64,000 nucleotides of DNA. Source: SAR86 cluster bacterium SAR86A. GTDB taxonomy: Bacteria; Pseudomonadota; Gammaproteobacteria; Magnimaribacterales; D2472. Of the stretch, positions 16,748-38,191 are shown in pieces (positions within the stretch are counted from its first letter, which is position 1; each line of letters begins with the position of its first letter). The notes under the pieces were generated by a model. The model searched no databases. It saw only the letters and a list, made by a program, of their open reading frames with translations, and had not been told where the DNA came from. A program made the translations under genes and the position numbers. The stretch is taken from assembly GCA_000252525.1 (NCBI GenBank), contig JH611156.1, forward strand, positions 348,785 through 412,784, written 5' to 3'.

Positions 16748-16768
16748 ACATTGATATTAAATGACATG

Positions 16769-16795
16769 AGGGCAGTTTATACTGCCCTTTTTTTT
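16769..16795 (+). terminator. Rho-independent terminator after the Oar-like receptor
   Basis: AGGGCAGT (16769-16776) pairs with ACTGCCCT (16781-16788) around TTAT, followed by a run of T. It ends the receptor transcript 22 bases after its stop. Confidence 0.9.
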
Positions 16796-16809
16796 GTTAA
16801 AATTTATAA

Positions 16810-17712
16810 ATGACTAATCAAGTTCCAGAACTTTCTTTTAAAGATATTGAAAAGGGAGATACTTTTTCAATAAATATATTAAAGGATGCATTATCAAACC
16901 ATGGTTTTTTTTCAATTACTGATCATGGTCTTTCACAAGATCTAATTGACAGATGTTACGCTTGTTCAAAGGATTTCTTCGATTTAGATTTTCAAGAAAA
17001 AGAGGCCTATAGTTCCGTTGGTTCTAAAGGAGCCAGGGGGTATACACCAAAAGGAATTGAGACCGCTGTTGGTGAAAAAATTGCTGATCAAAAAGAATTC
17101 TGGCATCACGGACCTGTAATTGATGATTCTTATGATAAAAAAATTCCTCCAAATATCTATATAAATGAAGTACCAAATTTTAATGAGAATTTTGACCAAC
17201 TTTATAATGAACTTCATAAAATTGGATCAAGAGTTCTATCTGTAATATCTTTATCACTTGGCCTAGATAAAGACTATTTTTCGCCATGGATTGATAAAGG
17301 AAATTCACTTTTAAGATCAATTCATTATCCGCCAGTGCAAGGAAATACAAACCCACATAGAGCAAGAGCGCATACAGATATAAATCTAATAACTTTATTA
17401 ATTGGTGCTGAGGAGGGTGGACTAGAAGTACTAAATAAAGACGGATCATGGATTAAAGTTGAACCAAGTTCGAATGCAATAGTATGTAATATTGGAGATA
17501 TGATGCAATTAGTTACTGATAAACAGCTTGTAAGTACTACTCATAGGGTTATTCAAGACTTAGAACAAGAATCTAAAGCAAGATACAGTATTCCTTTTTT
17601 TCTTCATCCAGCACCATCAATTAATCTAAAATCAGTTTTTAGAGAAAATGATGATGGAATATTGGCTGATGATTTCCTTGATGAGAGACTCAAAGCTATT
17701 AAGCTATACTAA
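16810..17712 (+). CDS. 2-oxoglutarate/Fe(II)-dependent oxygenase, isopenicillin N synthase-like family
   Basis: A 300-residue cytoplasmic protein. An N-terminal DIOX_N region (GFFSITDHGLSQDLIDRCY, about residues 32-50) is followed by the catalytic jelly-roll: iron ligands H188 and D190 (AHTDINLITLL) and H245 (TTHRVI), and R258 in RYSIPFF for 2-oxoglutarate. All catalytic residues are present. The family oxidises many small molecules, and the substrate cannot be told from sequence. The nucleoside transporter starts six bases downstream, so a nucleobase/nucleoside or other imported solute is one possibility. Confidence 0.85.
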   Translation: MTNQVPELSFKDIEKGDTFSINILKDALSNHGFFSITDHGLSQDLIDRCYACSKDFFDLDFQEKEAYSSVGSKGARGYTPKGIETAVGEKIADQKEFWHHGPVIDDSYDKKIPPNIYINEVPNFNENFDQLYNELHKIGSRVLSVISLSLGLDKDYFSPWIDKGNSLLRSIHYPPVQGNTNPHRARAHTDINLITLLIGAEEGGLEVLNKDGSWIKVEPSSNAIVCNIGDMMQLVTDKQLVSTTHRVIQDLEQESKARYSIPFFLHPAPSINLKSVFRENDDGILADDFLDERLKAIKLY

Positions 17713-22768: not shown

Positions 22769-25159
22769 ATGTCACGAATACAACTAAAACCACTTTTTGA
22801 AAAAAAAGTTGATCCTTTAACTTCTCTATTAAGAGATATTTTTAAAGATAATAACTACGCAATGTCATGGCTTGGTGCTTTATCAATTGGTATTGGAGTA
22901 TCAAATACTAACAATGTCAATGCACAAGATAGCGTTGAGGAAGTCATAGTTACAGCCTCAAAAAAAGAACAAAACATTCAGGACGTGGCCATGAGTGTTC
23001 AAGCAATTTCATCTTCTGAGCTTGAAGCAAAGAATATTAAAAATTTAGAGGATATTGCATCCATTTCACCTGCTGTGACTTTTAATAATGTTGGCCCTGG
23101 TAAATCAAATTTTTATATAAGAGGCGTCTCCGATGGTGCAATTATGAACAGTTATGCTTCACCTGAAGCAACAACAGCTCTATACATTGATGAACAACCA
23201 TTAACCGCCGCTAGTCTTACTCCAGATCTTCATATTTATGATATCGAAAGAGTTGAGGTGCTTATGGGACCTCAGGGTACCTTATATGGATCAAGTTCAA
23301 CATCAGGTAATATAAAAATCATTACAAAAAAACCTGATCCATCTGGATTTGATATGGGTGCTGATGTTGAATACGGCTCTATCGAAGATGGAACAAATGA
23401 TAAATCGCTTGAAGCATTTATAAACATACCTCTTGGGTCTAGTTTAGCAGCAAGGGTAAGTACTTATGATGTTCAAGATGGTGGTTGGATTGACAATAAA
23501 AAGGCTGACTATACTTATCAAAATTATGGAATAAATTACACAATAAATAATTACACAGCACCATATGCAGTAGCAAAGGATGATTATAATGATGCATCGA
23601 AAACTGGAAGCAGAATCAGACTTGCAACAGATTTTGATAACTTCAATTTAGATCTATCATTTTTAACACAAGAATCTCAATACAATGGTTCTTATGAAAC
23701 AGATCCATTAACTGATGATCAATCTTCTCCAATGCCAAAGAGAAGTAATACTAGATTTTCAGCAGAAAGATATGATGACGAGTTCGATCAAATGTCTTTA
23801 ACTCTAACAGGTTCTATCTCAGATAACATAGATATGATATTAACCTCTTCAATATTTGAAAGAGATACAGCATATACATATGACTATGCTAGTTATGTTG
23901 AATATTATGCTTATGCAGCATATCCAACCTATGTTTGTGATTACTACGATTATTACTACTACGGAAATATCTCAAATTGTAGAGATCCTCGTATGACATA
24001 TGCTCAAACAAATGAGATTGAAAGAACTTCTACTGAATTTAGACTTCAATCAAATAATGAATCAGGCTTTAATTGGATACTTGGTGCTTTTAAAGAAACT
24101 AATGAAAAAGTTACTGATGTTGATTATCTCCAACCTGGAAGTATCTATCCTACTTTTTGGGAAGCTGATTTAGTTAGAAAGGGCGATATAGATGCAATAT
24201 TTGGTGAAGCCTATTTTGATATTTCTGATAAAACTGAACTCACTGTTGGTCTTAGAAATTATGATCAAAAGATGAATCTTGTTGCAAGTGATGGTTACTA
24301 TGGATCCTACTCATTTGGTATTAGTAATCTTAACTTTAAATCATCAGAGAGTGGAACAATTCCAAAAGTATCAATATCTCATGATATTTCAGACGATGTT
24401 ATGGTTTATGGAAGTTACTCTGAAGGTTTTAGACCCTCTGGAGTGAATAGACCAAGACCATCTCAGGCGGGTTTAATACCTGAAACTTACGATGCAGACT
24501 ACTTAGATAGTTATGAGGTTGGTGTTAAGTCATCATTGCAAGATGGGAAACTTATTTTAAATGGGGCTCTGTATAGAATGGATTGGACAGATTATCAGAC
24601 TTCAACTTATAACTCTGATATTACCTCTGTTGCATATACTGAAAATGTTGGTAATGCTGAAATTAACGGACTGGAGTTAAATTTAGTTTATTCATTTGAT
24701 GATTCAACTAGCATGACATTTTATATGAATAAAATGGATCCAACATTATCTGAAGACTATTATTATGTGTCTGGAGAGCTTGGTGCTAACTCTGGTAATA
24801 GACTAGCTTATATGCCTGAACTCTCATACTATTTATCTTTTGATAAGAATTTTGTTTTGAGTAATGGTAAGCCAGGATTTGTAAACCTAGATTACTCATA
24901 TACTGGCGATAGAAATTCAACCTATGAAAATTCACCAATTTTAATACCATCTTATAGCATAGCTAATCTTAGAGCAGGTATCGAAAATGAGAATTCAACA
25001 ATAGAATTTTACGTCACAAATATCTTTGATAAGGATGCTCTTCTTTCAACCTATGATGACTTCTCAGCAGTGGGAAGTTCTGGCTATGCCGGTTTTGGTT
25101 ATAGAGATACTAGAACCAAGCCACAGGTTGTTGGTATAAGAATAAGATATAGATATTAA
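22769..25159 (+). CDS. TonB-dependent outer-membrane receptor
   Basis: A 796-residue receptor. An unusually long polar N-terminus (about 33 residues) precedes a hydrophobic signal stretch (MSWLGALSIGIGVSNT) and cleavage before the TonB box SVEEVIVTASKK (about residues 55-66). The plug (about 70-185) contains RVEVLMGPQGTLYGSSSTSG, and the barrel ends in IRIRYRY. Residues 368-398 form an extraordinary Tyr-rich loop (15 Tyr in 31) bracketed by cysteines. It is related to the receptor at 33.7 kb. The ligand is unknown. It shares its stop with the opposing hydrolase. Confidence 0.9.
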   Translation: MSRIQLKPLFEKKVDPLTSLLRDIFKDNNYAMSWLGALSIGIGVSNTNNVNAQDSVEEVIVTASKKEQNIQDVAMSVQAISSSELEAKNIKNLEDIASISPAVTFNNVGPGKSNFYIRGVSDGAIMNSYASPEATTALYIDEQPLTAASLTPDLHIYDIERVEVLMGPQGTLYGSSSTSGNIKIITKKPDPSGFDMGADVEYGSIEDGTNDKSLEAFINIPLGSSLAARVSTYDVQDGGWIDNKKADYTYQNYGINYTINNYTAPYAVAKDDYNDASKTGSRIRLATDFDNFNLDLSFLTQESQYNGSYETDPLTDDQSSPMPKRSNTRFSAERYDDEFDQMSLTLTGSISDNIDMILTSSIFERDTAYTYDYASYVEYYAYAAYPTYVCDYYDYYYYGNISNCRDPRMTYAQTNEIERTSTEFRLQSNNESGFNWILGAFKETNEKVTDVDYLQPGSIYPTFWEADLVRKGDIDAIFGEAYFDISDKTELTVGLRNYDQKMNLVASDGYYGSYSFGISNLNFKSSESGTIPKVSISHDISDDVMVYGSYSEGFRPSGVNRPRPSQAGLIPETYDADYLDSYEVGVKSSLQDGKLILNGALYRMDWTDYQTSTYNSDITSVAYTENVGNAEINGLELNLVYSFDDSTSMTFYMNKMDPTLSEDYYYVSGELGANSGNRLAYMPELSYYLSFDKNFVLSNGKPGFVNLDYSYTGDRNSTYENSPILIPSYSIANLRAGIENENSTIEFYVTNIFDKDALLSTYDDFSAVGSSGYAGFGYRDTRTKPQVVGIRIRYRY

Positions 25160-26028
25160 TTTAGAATTTTCTTAAAGACATCTTCTAACTGGTCAGGATC
25201 CTCAAAATAGGGGAAATGACCAGTTTCTTTTAATATAAATACGTCTTCTTCTGGATTAACATTTTTTAAGATAATATTTTCTGCATCAAATCTTGCAAGT
25301 TTATCTTTATCACAAAAAATGTATTTAACATTTTGAATATTCGATATTTGATCATCTTTTAATCTAAAGTTTGTACATGATTTTAAATCAATAGAGCTAA
25401 TTTCTTTTTCAGTTTGGTTAAATAGTCTCTTTAAAGGATATAGTTTGATTTCTCTCTCAGGATCATCTTCAACTGTTTTAGTCCCGTAAGGCGATTTAAT
25501 GACACCTTTGGATCTTCCGTAAAAACCAGACCCCTTTACTCCAAAACCCAACGTCTTTATTTCTGTTTCAGGCATTTTATAAATTCCGTACTTCATAAGA
25601 AACTCAACGCATTGATCTAGATTTCCTTTTGCATAATCCAAAAGCAAGTCACCAACTAAAAATGGATAGGCTATATTCATGCATATTGTCATATCATTTT
25701 CGTATTGTGTTGAAAGATCAAGGGCAATTAATCCACCCCAGCTATGTCCGGATAGAATAAGATTTTTTAAATTGAGCTCATTTAAAACTTCAATACATAA
25801 TTTTGTGTGACTTTCGACGTCATAAAAAAGAGGGCCTGTTGTATAACCGTGTCCAGGTAGATCAATTGCAATAATATTGTATTCGTCAACAAATGAATCC
25901 ATTTTAAACATTGAAAGTATTCTATGATCCATTCCTGCTCCTGGTATGAATAAAATACTTTTCTTAGAGGTGTCAATCTCCATCTTAGAAAATATATGAA
26001 CTTTATGATTTTTTAATTGAATAAACAT
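25156..26028 (-). CDS. Alpha/beta hydrolase
   Basis: A 290-residue serine hydrolase with LFIPGAGMDHR (oxyanion, about residues 26-36), DLPGHGYT, nucleophile elbow SGHSWGG (S96), and a C-terminal His in KETGHFPYFEDP (about residue 272). No signal peptide. It follows the BCCT transporter on the same strand, its ATG lying 26 bases inside that gene. An alternative ATG at about 25983 would remove the overlap, but the N-terminal strand MFIQLKNHKVHIF fits the fold. Substrate unknown; possibly an ester taken up by the transporter. Confidence 0.8.
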   Translation of the reverse strand: MFIQLKNHKVHIFSKMEIDTSKKSILFIPGAGMDHRILSMFKMDSFVDEYNIIAIDLPGHGYTTGPLFYDVESHTKLCIEVLNELNLKNLILSGHSWGGLIALDLSTQYENDMTICMNIAYPFLVGDLLLDYAKGNLDQCVEFLMKYGIYKMPETEIKTLGFGVKGSGFYGRSKGVIKSPYGTKTVEDDPEREIKLYPLKRLFNQTEKEISSIDLKSCTNFRLKDDQISNIQNVKYIFCDKDKLARFDAENIILKNVNPEEDVFILKETGHFPYFEDPDQLEDVFKKILN

Positions 26029-27475
26029 TTCTTAGTACTGAGTACATTAACAATATATTAATAAATAGCAATGGAATGGAGAAAATAACCATTATCCATT
26101 TAAATGAATCAACACCATTTAAAAACATTAGTAATGTTGGTTGAACGACTAATAATAATGAAAACAATAGTCTCAAGGATTTAGAGCTTGTTATGTCTGA
26201 ACTTTTCATTGATGCTGACGCAAGAACATAAGCTGTAGAGTCATATGTTGTACATAAAAATATAACTATGATTAATGCAAATGAAACCAACATTATTTCT
26301 CCATATGGTACTTGTGAGATAGTCTCTACAACAAGTTGCTCTCTGGACAGGAGATTATTAGCTATAATTGAGGGACTATCTAGAGTATTATTTTCAAAGA
26401 GTGAAATCGATAAATTTGATAAAATTAGCATACTAAATATACAACCAAAGCTCCCAATAAATATCGTTCCCAATATAATTTCTCTAAGAGTTTTATTGTT
26501 GGATATGTTTACTAAAAATGTTCCTACCATTGGTGCTAGTGCATACCACCATGCCCAATAAAAAACTGTCCAATCTATACTGATATTTGTACCTGTCGTT
26601 AAACTCATATCAATATATCTTGAAAAGAAAAACGACATCGTATTAATTGAATTTTCTATTATGTAAGTTGTTGGACCTATTACTAAAATTATTGCTAAAA
26701 AAGAGATAACTAAAACCATATTGATATTACTCAATCTTTTAATACCATTTTGAACTCCAACATATGCACTTGTTGCAAAAATTGCAGAACAAATCAATAT
26801 TGTTGTTAAATCTAATGTAATACTTCTATTTATATTTAAAATTTCAGAAATTACTGATGAGATCAAAGGAAAAGATAGACCAAGTCCAACTCCTGCTCCA
26901 CAAATAATTGCTCCAATAAACAAAACATCTAATAAGAATTTTATTATTTTGTTTTCAAAAAATAGTATTCCAGAAAAAGTGAGCTTTGACTTAGGCTTTA
27001 GACTTAAAGCTAGACCAAATGCTACTACAGGCAAACAATAAATTGCCCATGCAGTAAAACCCCAATGAAAAAGTGGATAAGATCTGGAGTACATCATAAT
27101 ATTCTCATCCTCCATTTGATCATTCTTAAGTATATTAAAGTACTCAATCCATTCCACAGTCGACCAATATAGAAGAGTTGCCCCAATTCCTGCAGCAAAA
27201 AGCATAGAACTCCATGATAAAAGTGAATAAGTCGGCCTGTTATTTAATTTTAATTTGATTGTGCCGTACCTTGAAATGGCAAGTAAAAGTAAAACAATTA
27301 GAAGAATAAAGCTCCCATACATAAAAAATGACTCGAACTTTACTGAAAGATCGTAATAGACTGAATTAAGTATTTTTGATGTTGAGGACGGGTCTAGTAA
27401 TACAAATATTGATAACACCAATGACAGTAAAATAGTTATACTTATCACTGATAAGTTCCAATTTGGATTAATCAT
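26003..27475 (-). CDS. BCCT-family transporter (divergent)
   Basis: About 490 residues and 12 helices of the betaine/choline/carnitine transporter family. HWGFTAWAIYCLP (helix 4) and DWTVFYWAWWYALAPMVGTF (helix 8) are clear. The usual second Trp of WAWWxxWxPF is Leu here, the following FIARISRGR is changed to FLVNISNNK, and the conserved WxxxFG is lost, so specificity probably differs from glycine betaine. The ATG at 27475 is preferred over an upstream TTG at 27505, which would overlap the divergent gene. It is likely in an operon with the downstream hydrolase. Confidence 0.88.
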   Translation of the reverse strand: MINPNWNLSVISITILLSLVLSIFVLLDPSSTSKILNSVYYDLSVKFESFFMYGSFILLIVLLLLAISRYGTIKLKLNNRPTYSLLSWSSMLFAAGIGATLLYWSTVEWIEYFNILKNDQMEDENIMMYSRSYPLFHWGFTAWAIYCLPVVAFGLALSLKPKSKLTFSGILFFENKIIKFLLDVLFIGAIICGAGVGLGLSFPLISSVISEILNINRSITLDLTTILICSAIFATSAYVGVQNGIKRLSNINMVLVISFLAIILVIGPTTYIIENSINTMSFFFSRYIDMSLTTGTNISIDWTVFYWAWWYALAPMVGTFLVNISNNKTLREIILGTIFIGSFGCIFSMLILSNLSISLFENNTLDSPSIIANNLLSREQLVVETISQVPYGEIMLVSFALIIVIFLCTTYDSTAYVLASASMKSSDITSSKSLRLLFSLLLVVQPTLLMFLNGVDSFKWIMVIFSIPLLFINILLMYSVLRNVYSIKKS

Positions 27476-27483
27476 TTTTTTAT

Positions 27484-29442
27484 ATGCCTGAATTAAATAA
27501 TGCAAAATTTGCCTTTGATAACGCAGTAAAATTACTCAATGATAATAATCTAAAAGAGTCTGTTGAACAACTAAATGAAATTATTAAGATTGAGCCAAAT
27601 CATATAAAGTCACTCAATCTTTTAGGCGATATTTATATCAAGCTTAATAAACCAAAAGAGTCACTTCATTTTGTAAATAAAGTACTTAACATCGAAAAAT
27701 TTAACAAATTCAATCTTGAGAAAAAATATAAATTATTATTATTTTTAGGCAATGAATCCAGTTCGCATGAAACCTTAGAATTACTTCACAAAAAACATCC
27801 TTCTATAAATACTGCAAGAGAGTTATCTAACTATTACCTTAAAATAGATGATGAAGAAAAATCAGATAACGTCATACAAGATTTTTTTGAATCTGATAAA
27901 ACTTATTCAGAGTTATATAAAGGTATTAGACATGTTAAGGCTGGTCGTTTCAAACTTGCTGAGGAAGCATACAAAAAAGTATTAAAAAAAGATAAAAACA
28001 ATATTGATGCCTTAAGGCTTTTAGGACTTTTAGCATTCAAAAACAAAAACTATACAATCGCAGAAAACTTATTTATTAAAGCAATTAAAATTGATCAGCA
28101 CTTTCATCTATTATGGGACAACCTAGCAAAGGTTTATCGAATTCAGAATAAATTAGATAAATCAAAAAAAGCATTTCAAAATTTAATAAAACTTGATCCT
28201 TATAATCTAGAAGCTCTGATTGCGTTGGGTACTATATATGTAAAGCTTGCAGATTATAATGCTGGTATTGATACTTACAGAGAAGTACTTAAATTAAAAG
28301 ATTCAAATCCAAGAGTATATTTAAGCATGGGACATGCTTTGAAGACTATTGGTAAAAGAAAGGAATGTGAAGAGGCTTATCATAAAGCTATAGAACTTTT
28401 TCCTTTATGTGGGGAAGGTTATTGGAGTCTTGCAAACCTTAAAACATATGAATTTTCTGACAAACAGATATTTAAAATGGAAAATTCACTAGAAGATAAA
28501 ATTCATGAACAAGAAAAAATACAAATGCTTTTTGCACTTGGCAAGGCTTATGAATCAAGAAAAAATTATAAAAAATCATTTGAATATTATGAAAAGGGTA
28601 ATTGGATGCAGCGAAAACTAGTTGACTACAATGCGCATGAAAACTCAAATAATATCGATTCAATAATTTCTTTTTTTGAAGAAAATTATGACAACATAAA
28701 TTTTTCATCTGGATTTGATACAAATGAACCGATCTTTATTCTAGGTTTACCTAGAGCTGGATCCACTTTATTAGAGCAGATTTTATCAGCCCATCCTGAA
28801 GTTGAGGGAACTCAAGAGTTGCATAATATTATGACTATTGGTAGAAGAATTAAATCTATTAATAATTCAGATAATTATTTGAATAATCTTTTAAATCTAG
28901 ATGAAACAAAGTTAAAAATGTATGGAAAAATGTACATAGATGAAACCAAGTGGGCAAGAAGAGAGAAAGTTTTATTTATTGATAAGATGCCCAATAACTT
29001 TCCTCATATTGGACTTATAAAAATGATACTCCCTAATGCAAAAATTATTGATGCTAGAAGGAATCCAATGGATGGTTGTTTCAGTTGCTTTAAGCAATAT
29101 TTTGCAAAAGGTCAGCATTTTACTTATGACTTAGATGATATTGCTAGATATTACAAAGATTATGTAAGACTGATGAATTTTTGGAATGAGTATTTCCCAA
29201 ATGATATACATACAGTTATATATGAGGATGTTATAAATAATCCAGAGGACGAAGTCCGCAAAATGTTGAATTATTTAAATCTTCCATTTGAAAAGGCTTG
29301 TATGGATTTCTATAAATCATCAAGACCAGTAAAAACAGCAAGTTCTGAACAAGTAAGACAACCTATTTATAAATCAGCTCTAAATTATTGGAAAAATTTC
29401 GAGGAAGATCTATCAATTTTATCAAATCACTTTAATGAATAA
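27484..29442 (+). CDS. TPR-repeat sulfotransferase
   Basis: A 652-residue protein. At least eight tetratricopeptide repeats (about residues 5-390) are followed by a sulfotransferase domain. The PAPS 5'-phosphosulfate loop is in FILGLPRAGSTLLEQ (about residues 419-433), the 3'-phosphate site in DARRNPMDGCFSCFKQYF, and the C-terminal SSEQVRQPIYKSAL block is conserved. It should transfer sulfate from PAPS to a substrate presented on the TPR arm, perhaps a carbohydrate, peptide or lipid. The paralogue at 36.2 kb has the same layout. The start codon is only eight bases from the divergent BCCT start. Confidence 0.85.
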   Translation: MPELNNAKFAFDNAVKLLNDNNLKESVEQLNEIIKIEPNHIKSLNLLGDIYIKLNKPKESLHFVNKVLNIEKFNKFNLEKKYKLLLFLGNESSSHETLELLHKKHPSINTARELSNYYLKIDDEEKSDNVIQDFFESDKTYSELYKGIRHVKAGRFKLAEEAYKKVLKKDKNNIDALRLLGLLAFKNKNYTIAENLFIKAIKIDQHFHLLWDNLAKVYRIQNKLDKSKKAFQNLIKLDPYNLEALIALGTIYVKLADYNAGIDTYREVLKLKDSNPRVYLSMGHALKTIGKRKECEEAYHKAIELFPLCGEGYWSLANLKTYEFSDKQIFKMENSLEDKIHEQEKIQMLFALGKAYESRKNYKKSFEYYEKGNWMQRKLVDYNAHENSNNIDSIISFFEENYDNINFSSGFDTNEPIFILGLPRAGSTLLEQILSAHPEVEGTQELHNIMTIGRRIKSINNSDNYLNNLLNLDETKLKMYGKMYIDETKWARREKVLFIDKMPNNFPHIGLIKMILPNAKIIDARRNPMDGCFSCFKQYFAKGQHFTYDLDDIARYYKDYVRLMNFWNEYFPNDIHTVIYEDVINNPEDEVRKMLNYLNLPFEKACMDFYKSSRPVKTASSEQVRQPIYKSALNYWKNFEEDLSILSNHFNE

Positions 29443-30118
29443 ATTTAATTATCCGAAATTAGAAAGGGTTGATACAGAAATTGGTAGACATTATAGAGAT
29501 TCAAACAACAATTTAGTTCCAAGCGTAACTACTGTTTTATCTGGCACCTCAGATAATAAAGATGGCATTGAAAAGTGGAGAAAAAAAGTTGGAGACATTG
29601 AAGCAGATCGGATCATGAAGCAAAGCACTGATATTGGTACGGCAGTCCATGAGGCCATTGAAAAATTTTTGGGTAATAATGATTGGGATCATTTTCAAGA
29701 CACTAGTGATCAGATCATGGCTAGAAAAATGACTTCTAAATTTGTTGATTTAGGCCTAAACAAAATCTCACAAGTCTGGGGACTAGAAGTAGGTTTAATT
29801 TTAGATAATTTATATGCTGGGACCGCTGATTGTGTAGGAACCTATGGTGACGTTCCTTCGTTGATAGACTTTAAGACCGCTCGGCGCATAAAAAAAAGAG
29901 AATGGATTGAAGATTACTTTCTTCAAGGATGTGCATATGCAAATGCACATAATGTGATGTTTAATACTGAAATAAAGCAAATTGTAATTTTAATGGTTGA
30001 TAGGGACTTAATGTTCAAAGAATTTATTGTTAGATCAGATGAATTTACATTTCTCACTGAAAAATGGAAAAAAAGACTTATAACTTTCAAAAACAAATAT
30101 AGCGACATAAGAGGATAA
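29435..30118 (+). CDS. Phage-type PD-(D/E)XK exonuclease (MGME1/Cas4-like fold)
   Basis: A 227-residue nuclease. Conserved residues lie in order: H72 (GTAVHEAIEKF), E118 (WGLEVGL), D132 (AGTADCVG), D145-x-K147 (LIDFKTA) and Q164 in YFLQGCAYANAH, the RecB/MGME1-like signature. It resembles single-gene exonucleases of marine T7-like phages and mitochondrial MGME1. The cysteine cluster of Cas4 iron-sulfur proteins is missing. It overlaps the TPR-sulfotransferase by eight bases and is two bases before the S51 peptidase, so it is embedded in a bacterial-type transcript. Role unknown, possibly DNA repair. Confidence 0.7.
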   Translation: MNKFNYPKLERVDTEIGRHYRDSNNNLVPSVTTVLSGTSDNKDGIEKWRKKVGDIEADRIMKQSTDIGTAVHEAIEKFLGNNDWDHFQDTSDQIMARKMTSKFVDLGLNKISQVWGLEVGLILDNLYAGTADCVGTYGDVPSLIDFKTARRIKKREWIEDYFLQGCAYANAHNVMFNTEIKQIVILMVDRDLMFKEFIVRSDEFTFLTEKWKKRLITFKNKYSDIRG

Positions 30119-30120
30119 TA

Positions 30121-30819
30121 ATGAGACAAATTATTGCAATTGGTGGTGGAGGATTTGGAAGAGAAATCAAAGATCTTAAAATTGAGAAGTATATTGTAGA
30201 ACAATGTCGGAGTGAGAATCCAAATATATGTTTTATCCCAACTGCAACAGGTGATGATCAAGGCTATATAGATAATTTTTATAAAGCCTTTGATTCATTA
30301 GGTTGTAAAACTTCACATATAAATTTCTTCAAAAGAACAATTAATTTAGAAGATCATATCAAAGATCAAGATATTTTTTTTATTGGTGGCGGTAATACTA
30401 AAAGCATGCTTGCTGTCTGGCGAGATTGGGGCTTAGACAAGCTTTTATATAATGCTTATAAGAAAGGAGCTATTTTAAGTGGTGTCAGTGCAGGAGCAAT
30501 TTGTTGGTTTGAACAGGGCATTACTGACTCTTGGAAAGAACATCAGGCTATAATTCCATGCCTAGGTTTTGTTAAAGGTATATGTTGTCCGCATTATGAT
30601 GAGGAGCCAGAGCGGATTCCTTTTGTAAAAAAAATTTTAGAAGGCAATGAAATCGATGAATGTATTGCGATTGAAGGTTTTTGCGCACTTCATTTAATTA
30701 ATGATTTGCCAACATATTCTGTAAGCTTTGGAAATGGTAATAATTGTTTTTTAGTTAATAGAAAAAAATCTATAATACAGCATAACAAACTTAAAAATAT
30801 AGAGGAAATACAATTATGA
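30121..30819 (+). CDS. Peptidase S51 family (dipeptidase E-like)
   Basis: A 232-residue cytoplasmic serine peptidase. The nucleophile S123 is in SGVSAGAICWF, and the preceding IGGGNTKSMLAVW (about residues 88-100) and CPHYDEEPER are family-typical. PepE relatives cleave alpha-aspartyl dipeptides, but this subgroup is broader. It could process imported peptides. It overlaps the next gene by four bases. Confidence 0.85.
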   Translation: MRQIIAIGGGGFGREIKDLKIEKYIVEQCRSENPNICFIPTATGDDQGYIDNFYKAFDSLGCKTSHINFFKRTINLEDHIKDQDIFFIGGGNTKSMLAVWRDWGLDKLLYNAYKKGAILSGVSAGAICWFEQGITDSWKEHQAIIPCLGFVKGICCPHYDEEPERIPFVKKILEGNEIDECIAIEGFCALHLINDLPTYSVSFGNGNNCFLVNRKKSIIQHNKLKNIEEIQL

Positions 30820-31193
30820 AGATAGCGAATGCATTATCTATAGTCCTAGGCGTAGTCTTGTTTTTGATAGCTGCTCAATGGATATTTACGCCTGCAACTG
30901 CTGCTGAAACATTAAGTATGCCATTTTTGGAGGGCGATGCTCGAAATACTCAAATAAGAGACTTTACAGCATTTTTCTTAGCTACTTCAATAATGTGTTT
31001 TTTGTCTTTTTTTACAAAAAAGTATGAATTTATATTTTGTTGTGGATTAGTTTATATGTTTGCAGCAATATTTAATGTTATTTCAAGTATCTATCATGGA
31101 GCTCCACTTGGCTTATCATCTCTTATATCAGAAATAGTTTTTACATCTATGGCATACATAGCTGCTTTAAATTTTAAAAAAGCTCATAAATAG
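30816..31193 (+). CDS. Four-helix membrane protein, unknown function
   Basis: A 125-residue protein with four hydrophobic segments (about residues 6-24, 50-66, 70-92, 98-118). The layout resembles DUF4345-type small membrane proteins, with IRDFTAFFLATSIMCF in the second helix. No function can be assigned. Translationally coupled to the S51 peptidase (ATGA), and overlapping the convergent nitroreductase by ten bases. Confidence 0.65.
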   Translation: MKIANALSIVLGVVLFLIAAQWIFTPATAAETLSMPFLEGDARNTQIRDFTAFFLATSIMCFLSFFTKKYEFIFCCGLVYMFAAIFNVISSIYHGAPLGLSSLISEIVFTSMAYIAALNFKKAHK

Positions 31194-31735
31194 GATACAA
31201 AATCATCAATTTCAAGATTAGGAATTTTTTTCTTGTTGCCAACCTCTGTTCCAACATATAAATAACCTAATATTTCTTGATGATCTTTAAGGTTTAGATT
31301 TTCCTGAACAACTTTGTTAAATGCCATTTTGCCAGTTCTCCAAATACATGCATAATTCATTGCATTTAATGCAAGCATTATATTTTGAGCAGCAGCAGCG
31401 GTTGATAATTTTTGCTCGATAGGTGGTACTTTAGGATGCTCCTTAAAGGTATTAACAAGAATTATTATCATTGGTGCTCTGTAGGGAGCATTTTTATATT
31501 TTTCTAGAACTTCATCAGCTATATTAGGAATCGTCTTTCCAAAATTAAAAAAAATATCTGACAACTTATCTAGGCCATCTTCTTTTACTTCAATAAAACT
31601 ACTAGTTCTTAGCCATGCATGATCAGGTGCTCGAAGAGCAGCTTTGTATACCGTTTCCATTTCATCTTTAGATGGAATTGGATTTGATAATGTTCTTGCA
31701 GATACTCTATTAAGTATATTATCTAATGCATCCAT
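31184..31735 (-). CDS. Nitroreductase-family flavoprotein (YdjA-like)
   Basis: A 183-residue FMN enzyme. The start RVSARTLSNPIPSKDEM, then AALRAPDHAWLRT (about residues 33-45), and AAAAQNIMLALNAMNYACIWRTG (about 113-135) match YdjA, a compact nitroreductase lacking helices of larger relatives. It uses NAD(P)H to reduce nitro or quinone-like compounds; the natural substrate is unknown. Alone on this strand. Confidence 0.88.
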   Translation of the reverse strand: MDALDNILNRVSARTLSNPIPSKDEMETVYKAALRAPDHAWLRTSSFIEVKEDGLDKLSDIFFNFGKTIPNIADEVLEKYKNAPYRAPMIIILVNTFKEHPKVPPIEQKLSTAAAAQNIMLALNAMNYACIWRTGKMAFNKVVQENLNLKDHQEILGYLYVGTEVGNKKKIPNLEIDDFVSYL

Positions 31736-31794
31736 TAAATTCTTTTATTTTTGAGGTTAATATATAAAAAAATGTAATTATATAGAGAAAATTT

Positions 31795-31947
31795 ATGTTA
31801 TATCAAATCGGTTTAATAGTATTGATTGTTTATGTAGCTCTTGTGTTATCAAAAAGATTTAATTCAACTAAAAATGGTAATGATTTAATTTATGAAGATG
31901 AAATGGATGACGAAGAGTTAAGTTCTATCGACGAAGAAATTCACTAA
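31795..31947 (+). CDS. Small membrane protein, 50 residues, with acidic tail
   Basis: An ATG at 31795 with TAGAGAAA about 6 bases before it opens 51 codons. A single helix (about residues 3-18, YQIGLIVLIVYVALVL) is followed by KRF and a very acidic tail (EDEMDDEELSSIDEEIH). The layout mirrors the 43-residue protein at 5.9 kb with inverted charge order. Its TAA shares bases 31944-31947 with the stop of the opposing BCCT gene. No family recognised. Confidence 0.5.
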   Translation: MLYQIGLIVLIVYVALVLSKRFNSTKNGNDLIYEDEMDDEELSSIDEEIH

Positions 31948-33434
31948 TTGATGATTTCTTCTTTTAAGGACTTAAGGAATTGTTTACAAGCAAATACAAC
32001 AATTAGAGCAAATGGAACTCCCGTAATTACAACTGAGGTTTGAAGGGCAGTCAATCCACCAGCGTAGAGCAAAACAGCAGCTAAAACTCCTAGTAAGATC
32101 GCCCAAGTAATTCTTGAAAGCATAGGCGAATCATCATTTATATTTGACTGACTCTTTGATGAAAGCATTGAGGCAACTAATGCTCCTGAATCAGATGAGG
32201 TGACAAAAAAAGTAACAATTAATATTAAAGATAGTATAGATAAAAATTGAGCTATTGGATAAACATCAAATAATGTAAATAAAGCTACTGGCAGGTTACT
32301 GCTTACCATTTCGCTAATTTGACTAGTTTCGTTTATTACCTGATAAATTGCAGCATTTCCAAATACTCCCATCCATATAAAAACTATTGCAGATGGAACG
32401 AATAAAACACCAATAATAAATTCTTTAATCGATCTTCCATAGGAAATTCTTGCTATAAATAGTGAAACAAATGGAGCCCATGCAAACCACCAAGCATAAT
32501 AGAATAGGGTCCATCCATTTTGCCAAGATGTATCATTGTAAACTTCTGTCCATGTAGCTGATTGAATCAATGTATTTAAGTAAGCACCAAAATTCTGAAT
32601 CAACGCATTTATGATAAATATCGTAGGCCCAAGAATAAATATAAACAACAACAGAGATATTGCTAATACCATATTAATTTGGGAAAGTTTTTTAATACCA
32701 GAGTCTAAACCTAATGAAACACTTACAAGACCAATTGCAGTGATGAAGGCAATAATCATTAGTTGATTTATGAAATTTTCATTTATTTCAAATACATGGT
32801 TTAAACCTGCACTAATTTGAACTGTACCCAATCCAAGAGAAGTTGTAACTCCAAATACAGTTGTGAGTATGGCAATGACATCTATAGTGATAGCAAGATT
32901 TTTATTTGAAGCAACCTTCGATCCTAAAAGAGAACTTACTCTAAAGGGTAGATTTTTATTATATGAAGCAAAAGCAAAACATAATCCTAATGATGAATAA
33001 ATTGCCCATCCATGTAGTCCCCAATGTAAATTTGCTAATCCAATTGCTTTACCAGCATTATATGAAACGTTGCCATCAATCATTCCTGGATATGAATTTA
33101 AATGCATTATAGGTTCAGCTACACCATAAAAGAGAAGACCAATTCCTAGACCTGCACTAAATAGCATTGCGATCCAATTGGTATATGAATAAGCAGGAGT
33201 AGCACCTGAGCCTCCTAATTTAATATCTTTATACCTAGTAAATAAAAGATATATGGAAAATACTAAAAAACCATTAGCCAATAAAATAATCATCCAACCA
33301 AGATATTTAGACAAAAAAGTTTGTAAATTTAAGAAAAAAACCTCTGAAACAGATGAATTTAATGAAACTACAGTCGTTATAAAGATTATTGAAGCAACAG
33401 CAGTGAAAAATCGAGATTTACTAATATTATTCAT
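31944..33434 (-). CDS. BCCT-family betaine/choline-type transporter
   Basis: A 496-residue, 12-helix transporter with canonical family signatures: HWGLHGWAIYSSLGL in helix 4 and GWTLFYYAWWFAWAPFVSLFIARISYGRSIKEF in helix 8, then WMGVFGNAAIY. The aromatic box that binds trimethylammonium or dimethylsulfonium groups is intact, unlike in the paralogue at 26 kb. Likely substrates are glycine betaine, choline or DMSP, imported with Na+ or H+. Divergent from the TonB receptor at 33.7 kb. Confidence 0.92.
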   Translation of the reverse strand: MNNISKSRFFTAVASIIFITTVVSLNSSVSEVFFLNLQTFLSKYLGWMIILLANGFLVFSIYLLFTRYKDIKLGGSGATPAYSYTNWIAMLFSAGLGIGLLFYGVAEPIMHLNSYPGMIDGNVSYNAGKAIGLANLHWGLHGWAIYSSLGLCFAFASYNKNLPFRVSSLLGSKVASNKNLAITIDVIAILTTVFGVTTSLGLGTVQISAGLNHVFEINENFINQLMIIAFITAIGLVSVSLGLDSGIKKLSQINMVLAISLLLFIFILGPTIFIINALIQNFGAYLNTLIQSATWTEVYNDTSWQNGWTLFYYAWWFAWAPFVSLFIARISYGRSIKEFIIGVLFVPSAIVFIWMGVFGNAAIYQVINETSQISEMVSSNLPVALFTLFDVYPIAQFLSILSLILIVTFFVTSSDSGALVASMLSSKSQSNINDDSPMLSRITWAILLGVLAAVLLYAGGLTALQTSVVITGVPFALIVVFACKQFLKSLKEEIIN

Positions 33435-33668
33435 TTTTTAGGTTTTAAGTGAAACATAATTGAATTCAATAATCCAGTTATAAGATTTTTATATTAATTA
33501 ATATCAGTATCAGTTATATGTATATTGCATGATATTTTTAAGATGTTATTATTACCCCAAGACCGATTTACAGAAATTGCTGGTCTATAAATATGGCTAA
33601 ACTTCTCTAGGGGGGAATGTCTCTGGGGGTACCAGGCTTGTTTATTTTGCAATTTATATTAACTAACT
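33435..33668. other. 234-base intergenic leader with G-runs and a hairpin
   Basis: This is the longest gap in the window, between the divergent BCCT and TonB-receptor genes. It contains an imperfect hairpin (AGACC 33560-33564 with GGTCT 33582-33586; inner ATTT/AAAT) and two G-runs (33610-33615 and 33625-33629) that stand out in AT-rich DNA. A CCCC at 33555-33558 could pair with either G-run. No known riboswitch motif was recognised. It probably carries the promoters of both genes. Confidence 0.35.
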
Positions 33669-33680
33669 ATGAGGATTCAT

Positions 33681-36176
33681 ATGTTTAATTTAATTAAAAC
33701 AAAAGAACAACTTAATAATTTAAAAAATAAGGTTTCTTTGGGTGTTCTTGGTGCAGTTGCTGCGATGATACCGCAAACAGCTGAATCACAAGAGCGGCAA
33801 ATAGAAGAGGTTGTTGTTTCTGCTACTAAGAAGGATGAAAGTGCTTCTAAAATACCAGTTACAGTTACAGCTTTGACTGAAGAGACTCTTAAAGAAATGA
33901 ATGTTTCTAATTTTGACGAGTATGTCGAATATTTACCAAACGTAACAAGTGGTGGACGAGGTCCAGGACAGTCGACTATTTACATTAGAGGTTTGGCAGT
34001 TGACTCAGTTAACGTCATGCTTGCTACAGCAGCTGGTTCACAACCAAATGTTGCTTTATACATTGATGAGCAACCAGCTCAAGTTCCTGGAAGAAATCTT
34101 GACGTATATGTTGCTGATATGGAAAGGGTTGAAGTATTGCCTGGACCACAAGGAACATTATTTGGAGCAAGTTCACAGGCTGGTACTGTAAGACTTATTA
34201 CAAATAAACCAAAATTCGATACTTTTGAAGGTGGCTTTAATACGTCAACCTTTGCTACTTATAGCGGTGATCCAAGTAATTCACTTGATGCTTTTATAAA
34301 TATACCTATTAATGATGCCTGGTCCATTAGAGGTGTATTCTATAATTCAACACAAGGTGGATATATTGATAATGTTGGGGGAACAGTTTCTTCACAAGGA
34401 AAAGGATCTTTTGCTTCTTTAGTCCCAGTTGGAAGATTTAAAACTACAGATAATTCTGAGTTGGTTGAGAAAAACTTTAACGAGGCAACTTATGAAGGTT
34501 TTAGATTGTCATCAAGAATGGCCTTTAATGATAATTGGGAACTTCTTGTAACTCACATTGATCAACAACTAGAATCTGACGGTGTTTGGGACTATGACCC
34601 AGCTGTTGGTGATCTTGAAGTAATGAGGTTCCAACCAGACACTTTAGAAGATTCTTTTGATCAAACTGCTATTACTCTTGATGGAAGAATGGGTATGTTA
34701 GATGTTTTATACACTGGTTCATTCTTAAACAGAGAAGCAGACCAAACAGTTGATTACACTGGATATATTAATACCGGTGCTTATATGCCTTATTATACTT
34801 GCGCATATTGGGGTTCACAGCTAGCAAATGCTGGAATGATTCCGACTTGTGGAAGTTCTGAAGTAAGAGTAGATGTTGTTGATGAGAATGAAAGAACAAC
34901 TCATGAGTTCAGAGTTAGCACTAATGAGTTGAGTGAACTACCTTTCTCATTTACAGCAGGTGTTTTTATTGAAGAAAGTGTACTAGATACTCAAAATGAT
35001 TTTGGATACCTAGGATTTTTAGATTTAATTCCATTATTAGGATACGCAGTTCCTAATAACCAAATTATTTCTGGTGTTTATGCAAATAACCCTAATCCTA
35101 GACCTCCAGAATACAGATTCTTTAATGATATAACCAGAACTGATGAGCAGATTGCTTACTTTGCTGAAGTTACACTTCCAATAACAGATCAGCTAAGCTT
35201 TACTCTTGGAATGAGAGATTATGAGCTTGATTTAGATTATGAGGGACAATCTAAATTTGGTCTTTTAACAAGTAATTCTCAATCGGGAAGGGACTACAAT
35301 AGTACAGCTGGACATACTGATCAGCCAATAACTGAAAATGATACTATTACAAAGTTCACTGCAAGTTATCAAAAAGATGAAAATACTCTCATGTACTTTA
35401 CTAGATCCGAAGGTTATAGACCTGGTGGCTGGAACAGAAATGCTGGTGTAACTCCAAAATGTAGAGGATATGCTACAACTGATCCAAACTATTGTGGTGG
35501 TAGCCCAGGTGACGGTACATACAGAGCTGACATACCATTAGCTTATAAATCTGACGAAGTGTTGAATACTGAAATCGGTATTAAGACTCTTCTAATGGAT
35601 GGAGCAATGAGACTTAATGCAACATACTACAACATTGAATGGACAGGTATTCAGGTATCACAGTTTGATCCAGTTCATGTTAACTTTATTACGTTTGTTG
35701 AGAATGCAGCTAACGCTGATATAAGTGGTGTAGAGGCAGATATGCTTTGGTATCCTAGTGATACTTTGACTGTTGCAGCAGCGATTTCACTAAATGATAC
35801 TGAAATTGTTGAAGACGTTGCTAAAACAATTCCAATTGTTGATATTGGTAATGCTCTACCTTTAGCACCAAAAAGACAGTGGAATGTTAGACTTAGAAAA
35901 GATATGGGAGCAAATGATGGTTACTTACAAGTAGTCTATAAGAGTGCTTCTGAAACATACAACTCTTTTGAGGCAGCAAAGGTTAAAGATCAACCTTCAT
36001 ATGAAATAATTGACTTAGCTTATGGTATGACAATTAATGATGTTGATGTTGAATTCTTTATCAGAAATGCTGGTGATGAAAGAGCAAACCTTTACTATAA
36101 TGATCAGGATGATATTCCAAGAATAACAACCAATAGACCTAGAAATATGGGTGTAAGATTATCTTATAGTTTCTAA
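33681..36176 (+). CDS. TonB-dependent outer-membrane receptor
   Basis: About 831 residues from ATG 33681, preferred over the ATG at 33669 because GAGG lies seven bases before it. The N-terminal polar stretch and hydrophobic signal (VSLGVLGAVAAMIPQTAES) precede the TonB box IEEVVVSATKKD. The plug has RVEVLPGPQGTLFGASSQAG and the barrel ends MGVRLSYSF. It is related throughout to the receptor at 22.8 kb, including a Cys-bracketed loop (CAYWGSQLANAGMIPTC) at the position of that protein's Tyr-rich loop. It sits next to a BCCT transporter, so both may serve one solute class. Confidence 0.9.
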   Translation: MFNLIKTKEQLNNLKNKVSLGVLGAVAAMIPQTAESQERQIEEVVVSATKKDESASKIPVTVTALTEETLKEMNVSNFDEYVEYLPNVTSGGRGPGQSTIYIRGLAVDSVNVMLATAAGSQPNVALYIDEQPAQVPGRNLDVYVADMERVEVLPGPQGTLFGASSQAGTVRLITNKPKFDTFEGGFNTSTFATYSGDPSNSLDAFINIPINDAWSIRGVFYNSTQGGYIDNVGGTVSSQGKGSFASLVPVGRFKTTDNSELVEKNFNEATYEGFRLSSRMAFNDNWELLVTHIDQQLESDGVWDYDPAVGDLEVMRFQPDTLEDSFDQTAITLDGRMGMLDVLYTGSFLNREADQTVDYTGYINTGAYMPYYTCAYWGSQLANAGMIPTCGSSEVRVDVVDENERTTHEFRVSTNELSELPFSFTAGVFIEESVLDTQNDFGYLGFLDLIPLLGYAVPNNQIISGVYANNPNPRPPEYRFFNDITRTDEQIAYFAEVTLPITDQLSFTLGMRDYELDLDYEGQSKFGLLTSNSQSGRDYNSTAGHTDQPITENDTITKFTASYQKDENTLMYFTRSEGYRPGGWNRNAGVTPKCRGYATTDPNYCGGSPGDGTYRADIPLAYKSDEVLNTEIGIKTLLMDGAMRLNATYYNIEWTGIQVSQFDPVHVNFITFVENAANADISGVEADMLWYPSDTLTVAAAISLNDTEIVEDVAKTIPIVDIGNALPLAPKRQWNVRLRKDMGANDGYLQVVYKSASETYNSFEAAKVKDQPSYEIIDLAYGMTINDVDVEFFIRNAGDERANLYYNDQDDIPRITTNRPRNMGVRLSYSF

Positions 36177-36194
36177 AGGTAATAGAAATTAATC

Positions 36195-36219
36195 AAAAGG
36201 CCAGTTTATCTGGCCTTTT
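36195..36219 (+). terminator. Rho-independent terminator after the TonB receptor
   Basis: AAAAGGCCAG (36195-36204) pairs with CTGGCCTTTT (36210-36219) around TTTAT, followed by more T. It separates the receptor from the TPR-sulfotransferase that starts at 36236. Confidence 0.9.
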
Positions 36220-36235
36220 TTAATATAATAAATAA

Positions 36236-38191
36236 ATGATTTCAAAAGAATCAACAGTCAAAAAAATTCAAAAAGAGATTTCTTCTCAAAAATATGATGA
36301 AGCAATAAAGCTTATTGAACATAATAAAAGAGACTTAGTTGAGATTGATTATTGGTATTATTTATCTTTATGTTCAAGATATTCAAAAAAATATAATGAA
36401 GCCTTAGTAATTTTGAATAACGTTATTAAAATTGATCCTAGTTATGCAAGAGCTTACCAAGAATTTGGACATAATTATTTCAAACTTAATAATTATAAAA
36501 TGTCTCTAAAAAGCTACTTAAGAGCTGTTAGATATAACCCTACACTTCATGCGTCATGGCTTGGAATTCTTGGAATTAAAAATGTTGAACAAAACATAAT
36601 TGATTTAGCTACTCAAAATGTTTTGTATCTTAAAAATTTACCTCCAGAACTAAAGTCTGTAAGCAGCTTTATTTATGAAGGAAAGTATAAAAAAGCAGAT
36701 CATCTTTGTAGAGATTTTCTTAAAAATCATCCACATCACATCGAAGCTATGCGATTGCTAGCAAAAATTGGAAAGGAGCTGCATGTTTATGATGATAGTG
36801 AGTTTCTTTTAGAAAGCTGCTTGATGTTTGATAAAGATAATTTTGATGTAGCACTTGATTATATAGATGTCCTTATTAAGAGACAAAAATATGCTAAAGC
36901 TCTTGAGGAGGCTGAAAAGTTATATTCAAAAGATAAAGATAACTTGAGATTTATGATTGCGTATGCAGTAACTCTTCAACAAACAAATAAACAAGAAGAA
37001 GCTCTTGAACTTTATAACAAAATTTTAAATATTGATAAAAAAAATCCAGAAATTTTAGTATCAAAAGGACATCTTCAAAAAACATTTGGAGATTTAAAAG
37101 GCTCTATAGATTCCTATAAAAAATCTTACAAAATCGACCAGTATTATGGAGATGCATATTGGAGTTTGGCCAATTTAAAAACATATCAATTTAATGATGA
37201 AGAGATAATGCAACTTGAAAAAATGACTCAAGATGAATTCATCAATGACAATGAAAAAATTTATATGAGTTTTGCTTTGGGTAAAGCCTTTGAAGACAGA
37301 GGTGAATATGATAAATCCTTTACAAATTATCAAAATGGTAATTCTCTTAAAAAAGAGTTTACCAAATTTGATTTAAAACTTTTTGACGAGGAATGTAAGA
37401 ATCAAAAAGAAGTATGCACACGTGATTTATTTGATTCTAAGGCAGATTGGGGTCTAGAAACAAAGGAACCTATATTTGTTCTAGGACTCCCAAGAGTTGG
37501 CTCTACATTAATTGAACAAATCTTGGCCTCACATTCCATGGTTGAGGCAACTCATGAATTACCAAATATTTTAGCTTTATCACATAAATTGAATCTTAGA
37601 AAAGTACAAGAAAAAACCTCGAGATATCCTGAAATATTATTATCTTTATCCGCACCTCAACTTAAGATGATAGGAGAGCAGTATATTAAAGACGCTGAAA
37701 TTTTTAGAACAAATAAACCTTTTTTTATAGATAAAATGCCAAATAATTTTAGGCATATTGGACTTATTAAATTAATTTTACCTAATGCAAAAATTATAGA
37801 CATAAGAAGAAATTCAATGTCAGCATGTTTTTCATGTTACAAACAACTTTTTGCTGAAGGTCAAGAATTTACATATGACTTTGGTGACTTAGCTGGATAC
37901 TATAATAATTATGTTGAGTTAATGGAACACTGGAATCAGGTTTTACCAAATCAAATTTTATCTATCAAATATGAAGATCTTGTAAACGATTTTGAAAATT
38001 CAGTTAATAAAATCCTTAATTATTGCAATTTAGATTTTGAAGACGAATGTTTAAGTTTTTATAAAAATAAAAGATCTGTAAGAACACCTAGTTCTGAACA
38101 AGTTAGGCAACCAATATACAAAAAAGGTCTAGATTATTGGAAAAATTATGATGTTTATTTAGGAGATCTTAAAAGAGATTTAAAGTATTGA
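36236..38191 (+). CDS. TPR-repeat sulfotransferase (second copy)
   Basis: A 651-residue paralogue of the protein at 27.5 kb with the same architecture: TPR array (about residues 15-390) then sulfotransferase. PAPS-binding VLGLPRVGSTLIEQ is near residues 419-432, followed by DIRRNSMSACFSCYKQLF and the C-terminal SSEQVRQPIYKKGLDYWKNY. The similarity is strongest in the catalytic half and lower in the TPR arm, as expected if the two recognise different acceptors. It begins only 17 bases after the terminator hairpin. Confidence 0.85.
   Translation: MISKESTVKKIQKEISSQKYDEAIKLIEHNKRDLVEIDYWYYLSLCSRYSKKYNEALVILNNVIKIDPSYARAYQEFGHNYFKLNNYKMSLKSYLRAVRYNPTLHASWLGILGIKNVEQNIIDLATQNVLYLKNLPPELKSVSSFIYEGKYKKADHLCRDFLKNHPHHIEAMRLLAKIGKELHVYDDSEFLLESCLMFDKDNFDVALDYIDVLIKRQKYAKALEEAEKLYSKDKDNLRFMIAYAVTLQQTNKQEEALELYNKILNIDKKNPEILVSKGHLQKTFGDLKGSIDSYKKSYKIDQYYGDAYWSLANLKTYQFNDEEIMQLEKMTQDEFINDNEKIYMSFALGKAFEDRGEYDKSFTNYQNGNSLKKEFTKFDLKLFDEECKNQKEVCTRDLFDSKADWGLETKEPIFVLGLPRVGSTLIEQILASHSMVEATHELPNILALSHKLNLRKVQEKTSRYPEILLSLSAPQLKMIGEQYIKDAEIFRTNKPFFIDKMPNNFRHIGLIKLILPNAKIIDIRRNSMSACFSCYKQLFAEGQEFTYDFGDLAGYYNNYVELMEHWNQVLPNQILSIKYEDLVNDFENSVNKILNYCNLDFEDECLSFYKNKRSVRTPSSEQVRQPIYKKGLDYWKNYDVYLGDLKRDLKY

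Follow-up and report, generated by a model that had tools for sequence, protein, structure and literature searches.

A TonB-dependent receptor paired with a TPR-armed sulfotransferase in SAR86 and other Pseudomonadota, with a predicted role in receptor tyrosine sulfation

Bacterial tyrosine sulfation is documented in the RaxX protein of Xanthomonas, and bacterial genes for tyrosylprotein sulfotransferases (TPSTs) have been called sparse in a review (PMC9372746). The enzyme concerned, RaxST, is a sulfotransferase that works in the cytoplasm, and its gene lies beside that of the exported protein that it modifies (PMC6637879, PMC9372746). Here we analyse a locus of SAR86 cluster bacterium SAR86A, within a stretch of 64,000 nucleotides of contig JH611156.1 (the window), that holds two genes each for TonB-dependent receptors (TBDRs; TBDR1 and TBDR2), BCCT-family transporters (BCCT1 and BCCT2) and sulfotransferases (STs; ST1 and ST2) armed with tetratricopeptide repeats (TPRs). 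The original prediction, made from the window alone, had placed these six genes within 16 kb, with both BCCT genes pointing away from the ST; all six open reading frames are present, span 15.4 kb, belong to these families according to Pfam and have the orientations described. Comparison with related sequences suggests that the core unit is a two-gene module, consisting of a TBDR and a dedicated TPR-armed ST (TPR-ST), and that the BCCT is a frequent and not an obligatory companion. To the function that we consider most likely, in which the TPR-ST adds sulfate to tyrosines in a loop of its cognate receptor ahead of export, we assign a probability of roughly 50%.

Conservation of the receptor–sulfotransferase pair

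The clustering is not a product of chance, because the 1.25 Mb SAR86-type source genome has both of its BCCTs (no other BCCT was found in the genome) and both of its TPR-STs at this locus (a third, stand-alone ST is located elsewhere), and because TBDR1 and TBDR2 are reciprocal best matches among the TBDRs of the genome (279 bits; next best ≤108). The 40 loci from SAR86-family genomes, selected by their ST, contain 55 STs, of which 54 lie no more than 6 kb from a BCCT and 54 no more than 3.5 kb from a TBDR; the three families are thus not scattered independently among the relatives. TPR-ST matches at E<1e-40 occur in 81 of 107 family genomes (hand count), and many family genomes carry two TPR-STs at a constant distance of 8-9 kb. 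The 14 genomes that are at least 90% complete and have BCCT matches contain 21 BCCT genes, and by manual reading 20 of these are at most ~5 kb from a TPR-ST. The relatives show a module A (TBDR1, hydrolase, BCCT1 and ST1) and a module B (BCCT2, TBDR2 and ST2), which stand at separate places in the genomes of genus g5, each of them complete. Where ST1 is absent, a module C comprises a TBDR and a shorter ST (~530 aa), joined in some genomes by a further gene that was first guessed to encode another transporter and proved to be a carboxylesterase. ST2 or adjacent genes are interrupted by stops or frame changes in L039, L040, G044, G092 and G038, which may be draft-assembly errors.

The TBDR–ST pair is present in both Alpha- and Gammaproteobacteria. 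A search of a genome collection yielded 80 named loci (hosts include Caulobacter, Hyphomonas, Kordiimonas, Sphingomonas, Alteromonas, Colwellia, Glaciecola, Halieaceae, Woeseiaceae, Lysobacter and Dyella), and 73 TBDRs from the loci of this search are no more than 2.5 kb away from an ST. In a wider sample of 398 Pseudomonadota genomes, 40 of 41 TBDRs of the partner clade (>600 bits) are within 6 kb of an ST and, in the reverse direction, 40 of the 47 high-scoring STs are near a partner-clade TBDR. A BCCT is nearby in 8/70 non-SAR86 loci and in 0/53 control loci (the control loci being shorter), and was therefore rejected as an obligatory partner outside SAR86. In the proposal of a combined uptake and sulfation set, the uptake part is the weaker one. 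More distant TPR-STs adjoin other TonB receptor families as well (L199, L228, L234, L235, L237, L238, L239 and L240); among these loci, L239 and L199 have a receptor with a tyrosine-rich loop of its own and L238 has a BCCT.

Co-variation of receptor and enzyme

At locus B, two allele types were found across 24 loci, and TBDR2 and ST2 switch type jointly: relative to the window, allele 1 has 61-93% identity in the TBDR with 57-81% in the ST, and allele 2 has 37-40% with 40-41%, while BCCT2 stays 53-88% identical as these alleles change. The distance matrices of TBDR2 and ST2 correlate at r=0.974, compared with r=0.28 for TBDR2 and BCCT2, and a phylum-wide mirror-tree comparison of 74 TBDR–ST pairs gave r=0.895. 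Such a pattern could reflect genomic neighbourhood only, the TBDR and ST being transferred together as a linked block while serving unrelated processes. The two genes are indeed adjacent and swap as a block, and second-tier TPR-STs adjoin quite different TBDR families; however, linkage alone would hardly preserve the pair in 40/41 cases over two classes with co-variation of r=0.90, and a tyrosine-rich loop, described below, is specific to receptors that have an ST. We regard this explanation as improbable.

A tyrosine-rich loop in the paired receptors

TBDR1 has 15 tyrosines within one 30-residue stretch, by far the highest value among the receptors of the genome, and the ST-paired TBDRs of SAR86 loci carry a tyrosine-rich stretch at the equivalent position. 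In ST-adjacent receptors this loop opens with the motif R-x6-D-x3-Y ('DYSDY'), of which R365, D372 and Y376 (TBDR1 numbering) are invariant in two partner-receptor alignments (30 and 38 sequences; mean column identity 29-30%), and the tyrosine content is 17% inside the loop versus 4.7% outside. The D and Y are both present in 70/73 ST-adjacent TBDRs versus 7/41 controls (Fisher p=1e-18), in 57/59 ST-adjacent TBDRs outside SAR86 and in 3/18 of the closest controls; some of the partner receptors went into building the profile, so that alignment is favoured for these, and most partners did not. The closest relatives without an ST mostly have DASAL or similar (R..DASAL), with 0-2 tyrosines. The three ST-adjacent exceptions are a receptor with E for D, a very divergent pair and a receptor of 933 aa (L106) that adjoins an ST and is probably not its partner. 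These data suggest that the tyrosine-rich D-x3-Y loop is specific to the ST-paired receptor clade, and the distant L199 and L239 provide an independent case in favour of the motif–ST link.

The AlphaFold model of TBDR1 (pLDDT 83) is a TonB receptor barrel, with FyuA as the nearest solved structure (4epa, TMt 0.89). In this model, loop 373-409, itself of low confidence, connects strands 354-372 and 410-428. Long loops alternate with short turns on its side of the barrel, which makes an extracellular position probable.

The sulfotransferase and its proposed function

The ST1 model (pLDDT 91) consists of a TPR superhelix followed by the sulfotransferase domain. The closest solved structures to the TPR arm are O-GlcNAc transferase and SPINDLY, and the likeness to the former, which has protein substrates, supports a protein substrate for the TPR-ST. 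Whole-protein phmmer and Foldseek searches with ST1 were dominated by the TPRs and said little about the ST domain, whose own profile matched TPST1 (3.8e-12) and CurM (4.1e-12), with TPST2 close and SULTs far weaker; the TPST1/2 matches (4e-12 to 1e-8) cover the C-terminal S-x-x-QV-x-x-P stretch. The motif residues of the site for 3'-phosphoadenosine 5'-phosphosulfate (PAPS; PRxGST, DKxPNNF and RR) are invariant in 45 STs, and the donor site is intact. The ratio of non-synonymous to synonymous substitution rates (dN/dS) of the ST is ~0.05-0.13, a rough value with dS near saturation. No signal peptide was evident by eye at the ST N terminus.

We propose that the TPR-ST, acting in the cytoplasm, would bind the unfolded precursor of its own receptor through the TPR superhelix and sulfate tyrosines of one acidic, tyrosine-rich segment prior to Sec export, as RaxST does on RaxX. 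The sulfated segment would then form an extracellular loop of the receptor barrel, in which sulfotyrosines, combining a negative charge with an aromatic ring, may govern ligand binding or shield the receptor from phage and bacteriocin attack. The BCCT and the hydrolase would be add-ons for transporting or processing small solutes of the quaternary-ammonium or sulfonium type. The earlier suggestion that sulfate transfer may modify the receptors gains support from the co-replacement of TBDR and ST and from the loop motif, and stays a prediction.

The ST might instead sulfate a compound that the same receptor handles, be it a surface glycan, a lipid or an imported small molecule. In that case the tyrosine-rich loop would simply bind the ligand, for instance as an aromatic cage around quaternary-ammonium groups, which the BCCTs would subsequently import. 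This is consistent with PDB searches, in which the nearest solved relative of BCCT1 is the dimethylsulfoniopropionate transporter DddT and those of BCCT2 are a trimethylamine transporter and choline/betaine BCCTs, with the hydrolase and carboxylesterase genes that accompany some sets, with the ST domain being as near to CurM, an ST of a polyketide pathway, as to TPST1, and with the view that SAR86 uses membrane lipids including phosphatidylcholine (PMC11582366). However, the motif and loop also occur without a BCCT nearby (none in 62/70 non-SAR86 loci), the TPR arm indicates a protein substrate, and at locus B it is the receptor, not the transporter, with which the ST co-varies. BCCT substrates are, moreover, small enough for porins. 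On balance, we consider a ligand or glycan substrate unlikely, although less so than mere linkage.

Several observations weigh against sulfation of the receptor loop. The motif subtype D-[AST]-[ST]-x-Y keeps only one core tyrosine, and L240 and L205 do not favour a link between tyrosine-rich loop and ST. Because the partner TBDRs form one clade, the motif and the ST could have been co-inherited without acting on each other; similarly, co-replacement can be mere physical linkage and is, given the adjacency of the two genes, no proof of interaction by itself. CurM scores level with TPST1. Finally, the PAPS donor in SAR86 lacks an account, because canonical adenosine 5'-phosphosulfate (APS) kinase was detected in 0/106 SAR86-family genomes (best match 37 bits) and a published survey of SAR86 found sulfate incorporation unsupported, a putative permease in one family being the only exception (PMC11582366).

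Sulfate activation in SAR86

Canonical APS kinase is encoded in 33/33 non-SAR86 genomes with a TBDR–ST pair (221-243 bits), in contrast to its absence from the SAR86-family genomes. Cutting across the other readings, the SAR86 ST may use a donor other than PAPS from canonical activation, or a very small kinase/nucleotidyltransferase pair may have replaced APS kinase. Besides this contrast, the idea draws on a 136-aa APS-kinase-like protein of SAR86, whose profile matches mostly APS kinases in PDB and whose gene overlaps that of a 129-aa nucleotidyltransferase; APS-kinase-profile matches of this size are found in 91/106 SAR86-family genomes (an assignment to TsaE was rejected on reading), and the phage family phrog_10255 is a fusion of kinase-like and nucleotidyltransferase proteins. 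On the other hand, the kinase match covers only the first ~83 residues, no link between the pair and the ST genes is apparent, and the nucleotidyltransferase profile is nearest to nicotinamide mononucleotide (NMN) adenylyltransferase, which makes NAD-type salvage equally possible for the pair. The two proteins are a candidate replacement of APS kinase, and we view a non-canonical donor route as possible, if tentative. Canonical sulfate assimilation in SAR86 was rejected: CysH/CysD profiles gave one strong match (G057), and a sulfate permease occurs in only a few genomes. The G057 match (L093:1441-2034) is a clear PAPS-reductase-domain protein beside NeuB- and Wzz-like genes.

Two old sets and their neighbours

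The prediction had described the two sets as duplicated. Both hold the same three families, and the term is nevertheless a loose one: the copies share 27% (TBDR), 30% (BCCT) and 37% (ST) identity, the gene order differs (TBDR1-hydrolase-BCCT1-ST1 in set A, BCCT2-TBDR2-ST2 in set B), set A adds a hydrolase, and ST1 and ST2 fall in different clades of the ST tree. A recent local or tandem duplication was rejected on these identities, the gene order and the separate clades, and the two copies are, by this sequence comparison, old. ST1 belongs to a SAR86 clade, and ST2 clusters with enzymes from Sphingomonadaceae, Colwellia, Alteromonas and Neptunicella, at loci that likewise contain a BCCT.

Domain matches were obtained in both sets (Plug, E of 2e-16 and 5e-16; Sulfotransfer_3, 1e-44 and 8e-46). 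The linker genes between them encode an exonuclease of phage type, an S51 peptidase, a small membrane protein and a nitroreductase, and are neighbours shared with relatives; those at 29435-31193 are conserved and probably take no part in the mechanism. The exonuclease is retained between ST1 and the peptidase in most SAR86 relatives. Elsewhere in the sample, one genome has a repeated, near-identical umuD/umuC-like gene pair, ~5 kb apart (L085:11078-12768 and 15953-17589).

Table 1 Coordinates of the locus features and of the candidate sulfate-activating pair (window positions unless another contig is given).
Feature	Position	Strand	Description
TBDR1	22769-25159	+	Pfam Plug + barrel; TonB-dependent receptor paired with ST1
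Tyrosine-rich loop of TBDR1	23882-23995	+	Residues 372-409; proposed sulfation site
D372-x3-Y376 motif of TBDR1	23882-23896	+	Opens the tyrosine-rich loop
Alpha/beta hydrolase	25156-26028	-	Pfam Abhydrolase_6/1; overlaps BCCT1; adjoins BCCT1 in most SAR86 set-A loci
BCCT1	26003-27505	-	Pfam BCCT, 323 bits (cut-off 27); ATG at 27475 may be the true start
ST1	27484-29442	+	652 aa; Pfam TPR + Sulfotransfer_3; sulfotransferase domain ~28729-29439
Phage-type exonuclease (phrog_298)	29435-30118	+	Linker gene
Peptidase S51	30121-30819	+	Linker gene
Small membrane protein	30816-31193	+	Linker gene
BCCT2	31944-33434	-	Pfam BCCT, 531 bits (cut-off 27)
TBDR2	33669-36176	+	Pfam Plug; receptor paired with ST2
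Tyrosine-rich loop of TBDR2	34752-34859	+	Opens with DYTGY, residues 362-366; motif READQTVDYTGY; aligns with TBDR1 R365/D372/Y376
ST2	36236-38191	+	651 aa; Pfam TPR + Sulfotransfer_3; set B
136-aa APS-kinase-like + 129-aa NMN-adenylyltransferase-like	G000:C1 ~772794-773586 (L095:10794-11586)		Overlapping genes

Implications

Literature searches on TBDRs with sulfotransferases, on SAR86 with sulfotransferases and on tyrosine sulfation of outer-membrane proteins, in which subscription journals were thinly covered, returned no description of such a system, in agreement with the earlier view that a combined uptake and sulfation set is undescribed. Sulfation of the tyrosines of a bacterium's own surface receptors would be new, if true. 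It would mean that TonB receptors of a whole clade are chemically modified on an exposed loop in Alpha- and Gammaproteobacteria, among them one of the most common surface-ocean groups, and it would alter sequence-based prediction of receptor ligands, phage receptors and bacteriocin targets. A broader claim, that receptor-loop sulfation is a post-translational system widespread among bacteria, with a separate TPR-armed ST for each receptor and, in SAR86, with an unrecognised minimal sulfate-activating pair feeding it in place of the usual APS kinase, is speculative, and we doubt that it holds in full. What makes the finding interesting is how widespread the module is, together with a precise prediction that lends itself to a direct test in culturable strains (Alteromonas, Colwellia, Caulobacter and Sphingomonas relatives); the finding also poses a clear question on sulfate activation in SAR86.

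Comparison with known systems

RaxST and RaxX resemble the module in that a cytoplasmic enzyme with PAPS-type motifs is encoded beside the exported protein that it modifies, and here too tyrosines in an acidic context are the proposed acceptors. The systems differ in that the substrate of RaxST is a 60-residue secreted precursor, whereas the neighbour here is an outer-membrane receptor and the TPR-ST module spans Alpha- and Gammaproteobacteria; we know of no TPR arm on RaxST. Metazoan TPST1 and TPST2 rank with the top solved matches to the ST domain, including the S-x-x-QV-x-x-P stretch, but are Golgi membrane enzymes without a TPR arm and have very low sequence identity to the ST. O-GlcNAc transferase and SPINDLY, the top structure matches through the TPR arm, share the layout of a long TPR superhelix followed by a C-terminal transferase, which in their case is a glycosyltransferase and not a sulfotransferase. 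The siderophore receptors FyuA, FhuA and Fiu have the same plug and barrel fold as the TBDRs described here; to our knowledge none of them is paired with a sulfotransferase, and the tyrosine-rich D-x3-Y loop sets the ST-paired clade apart from them.

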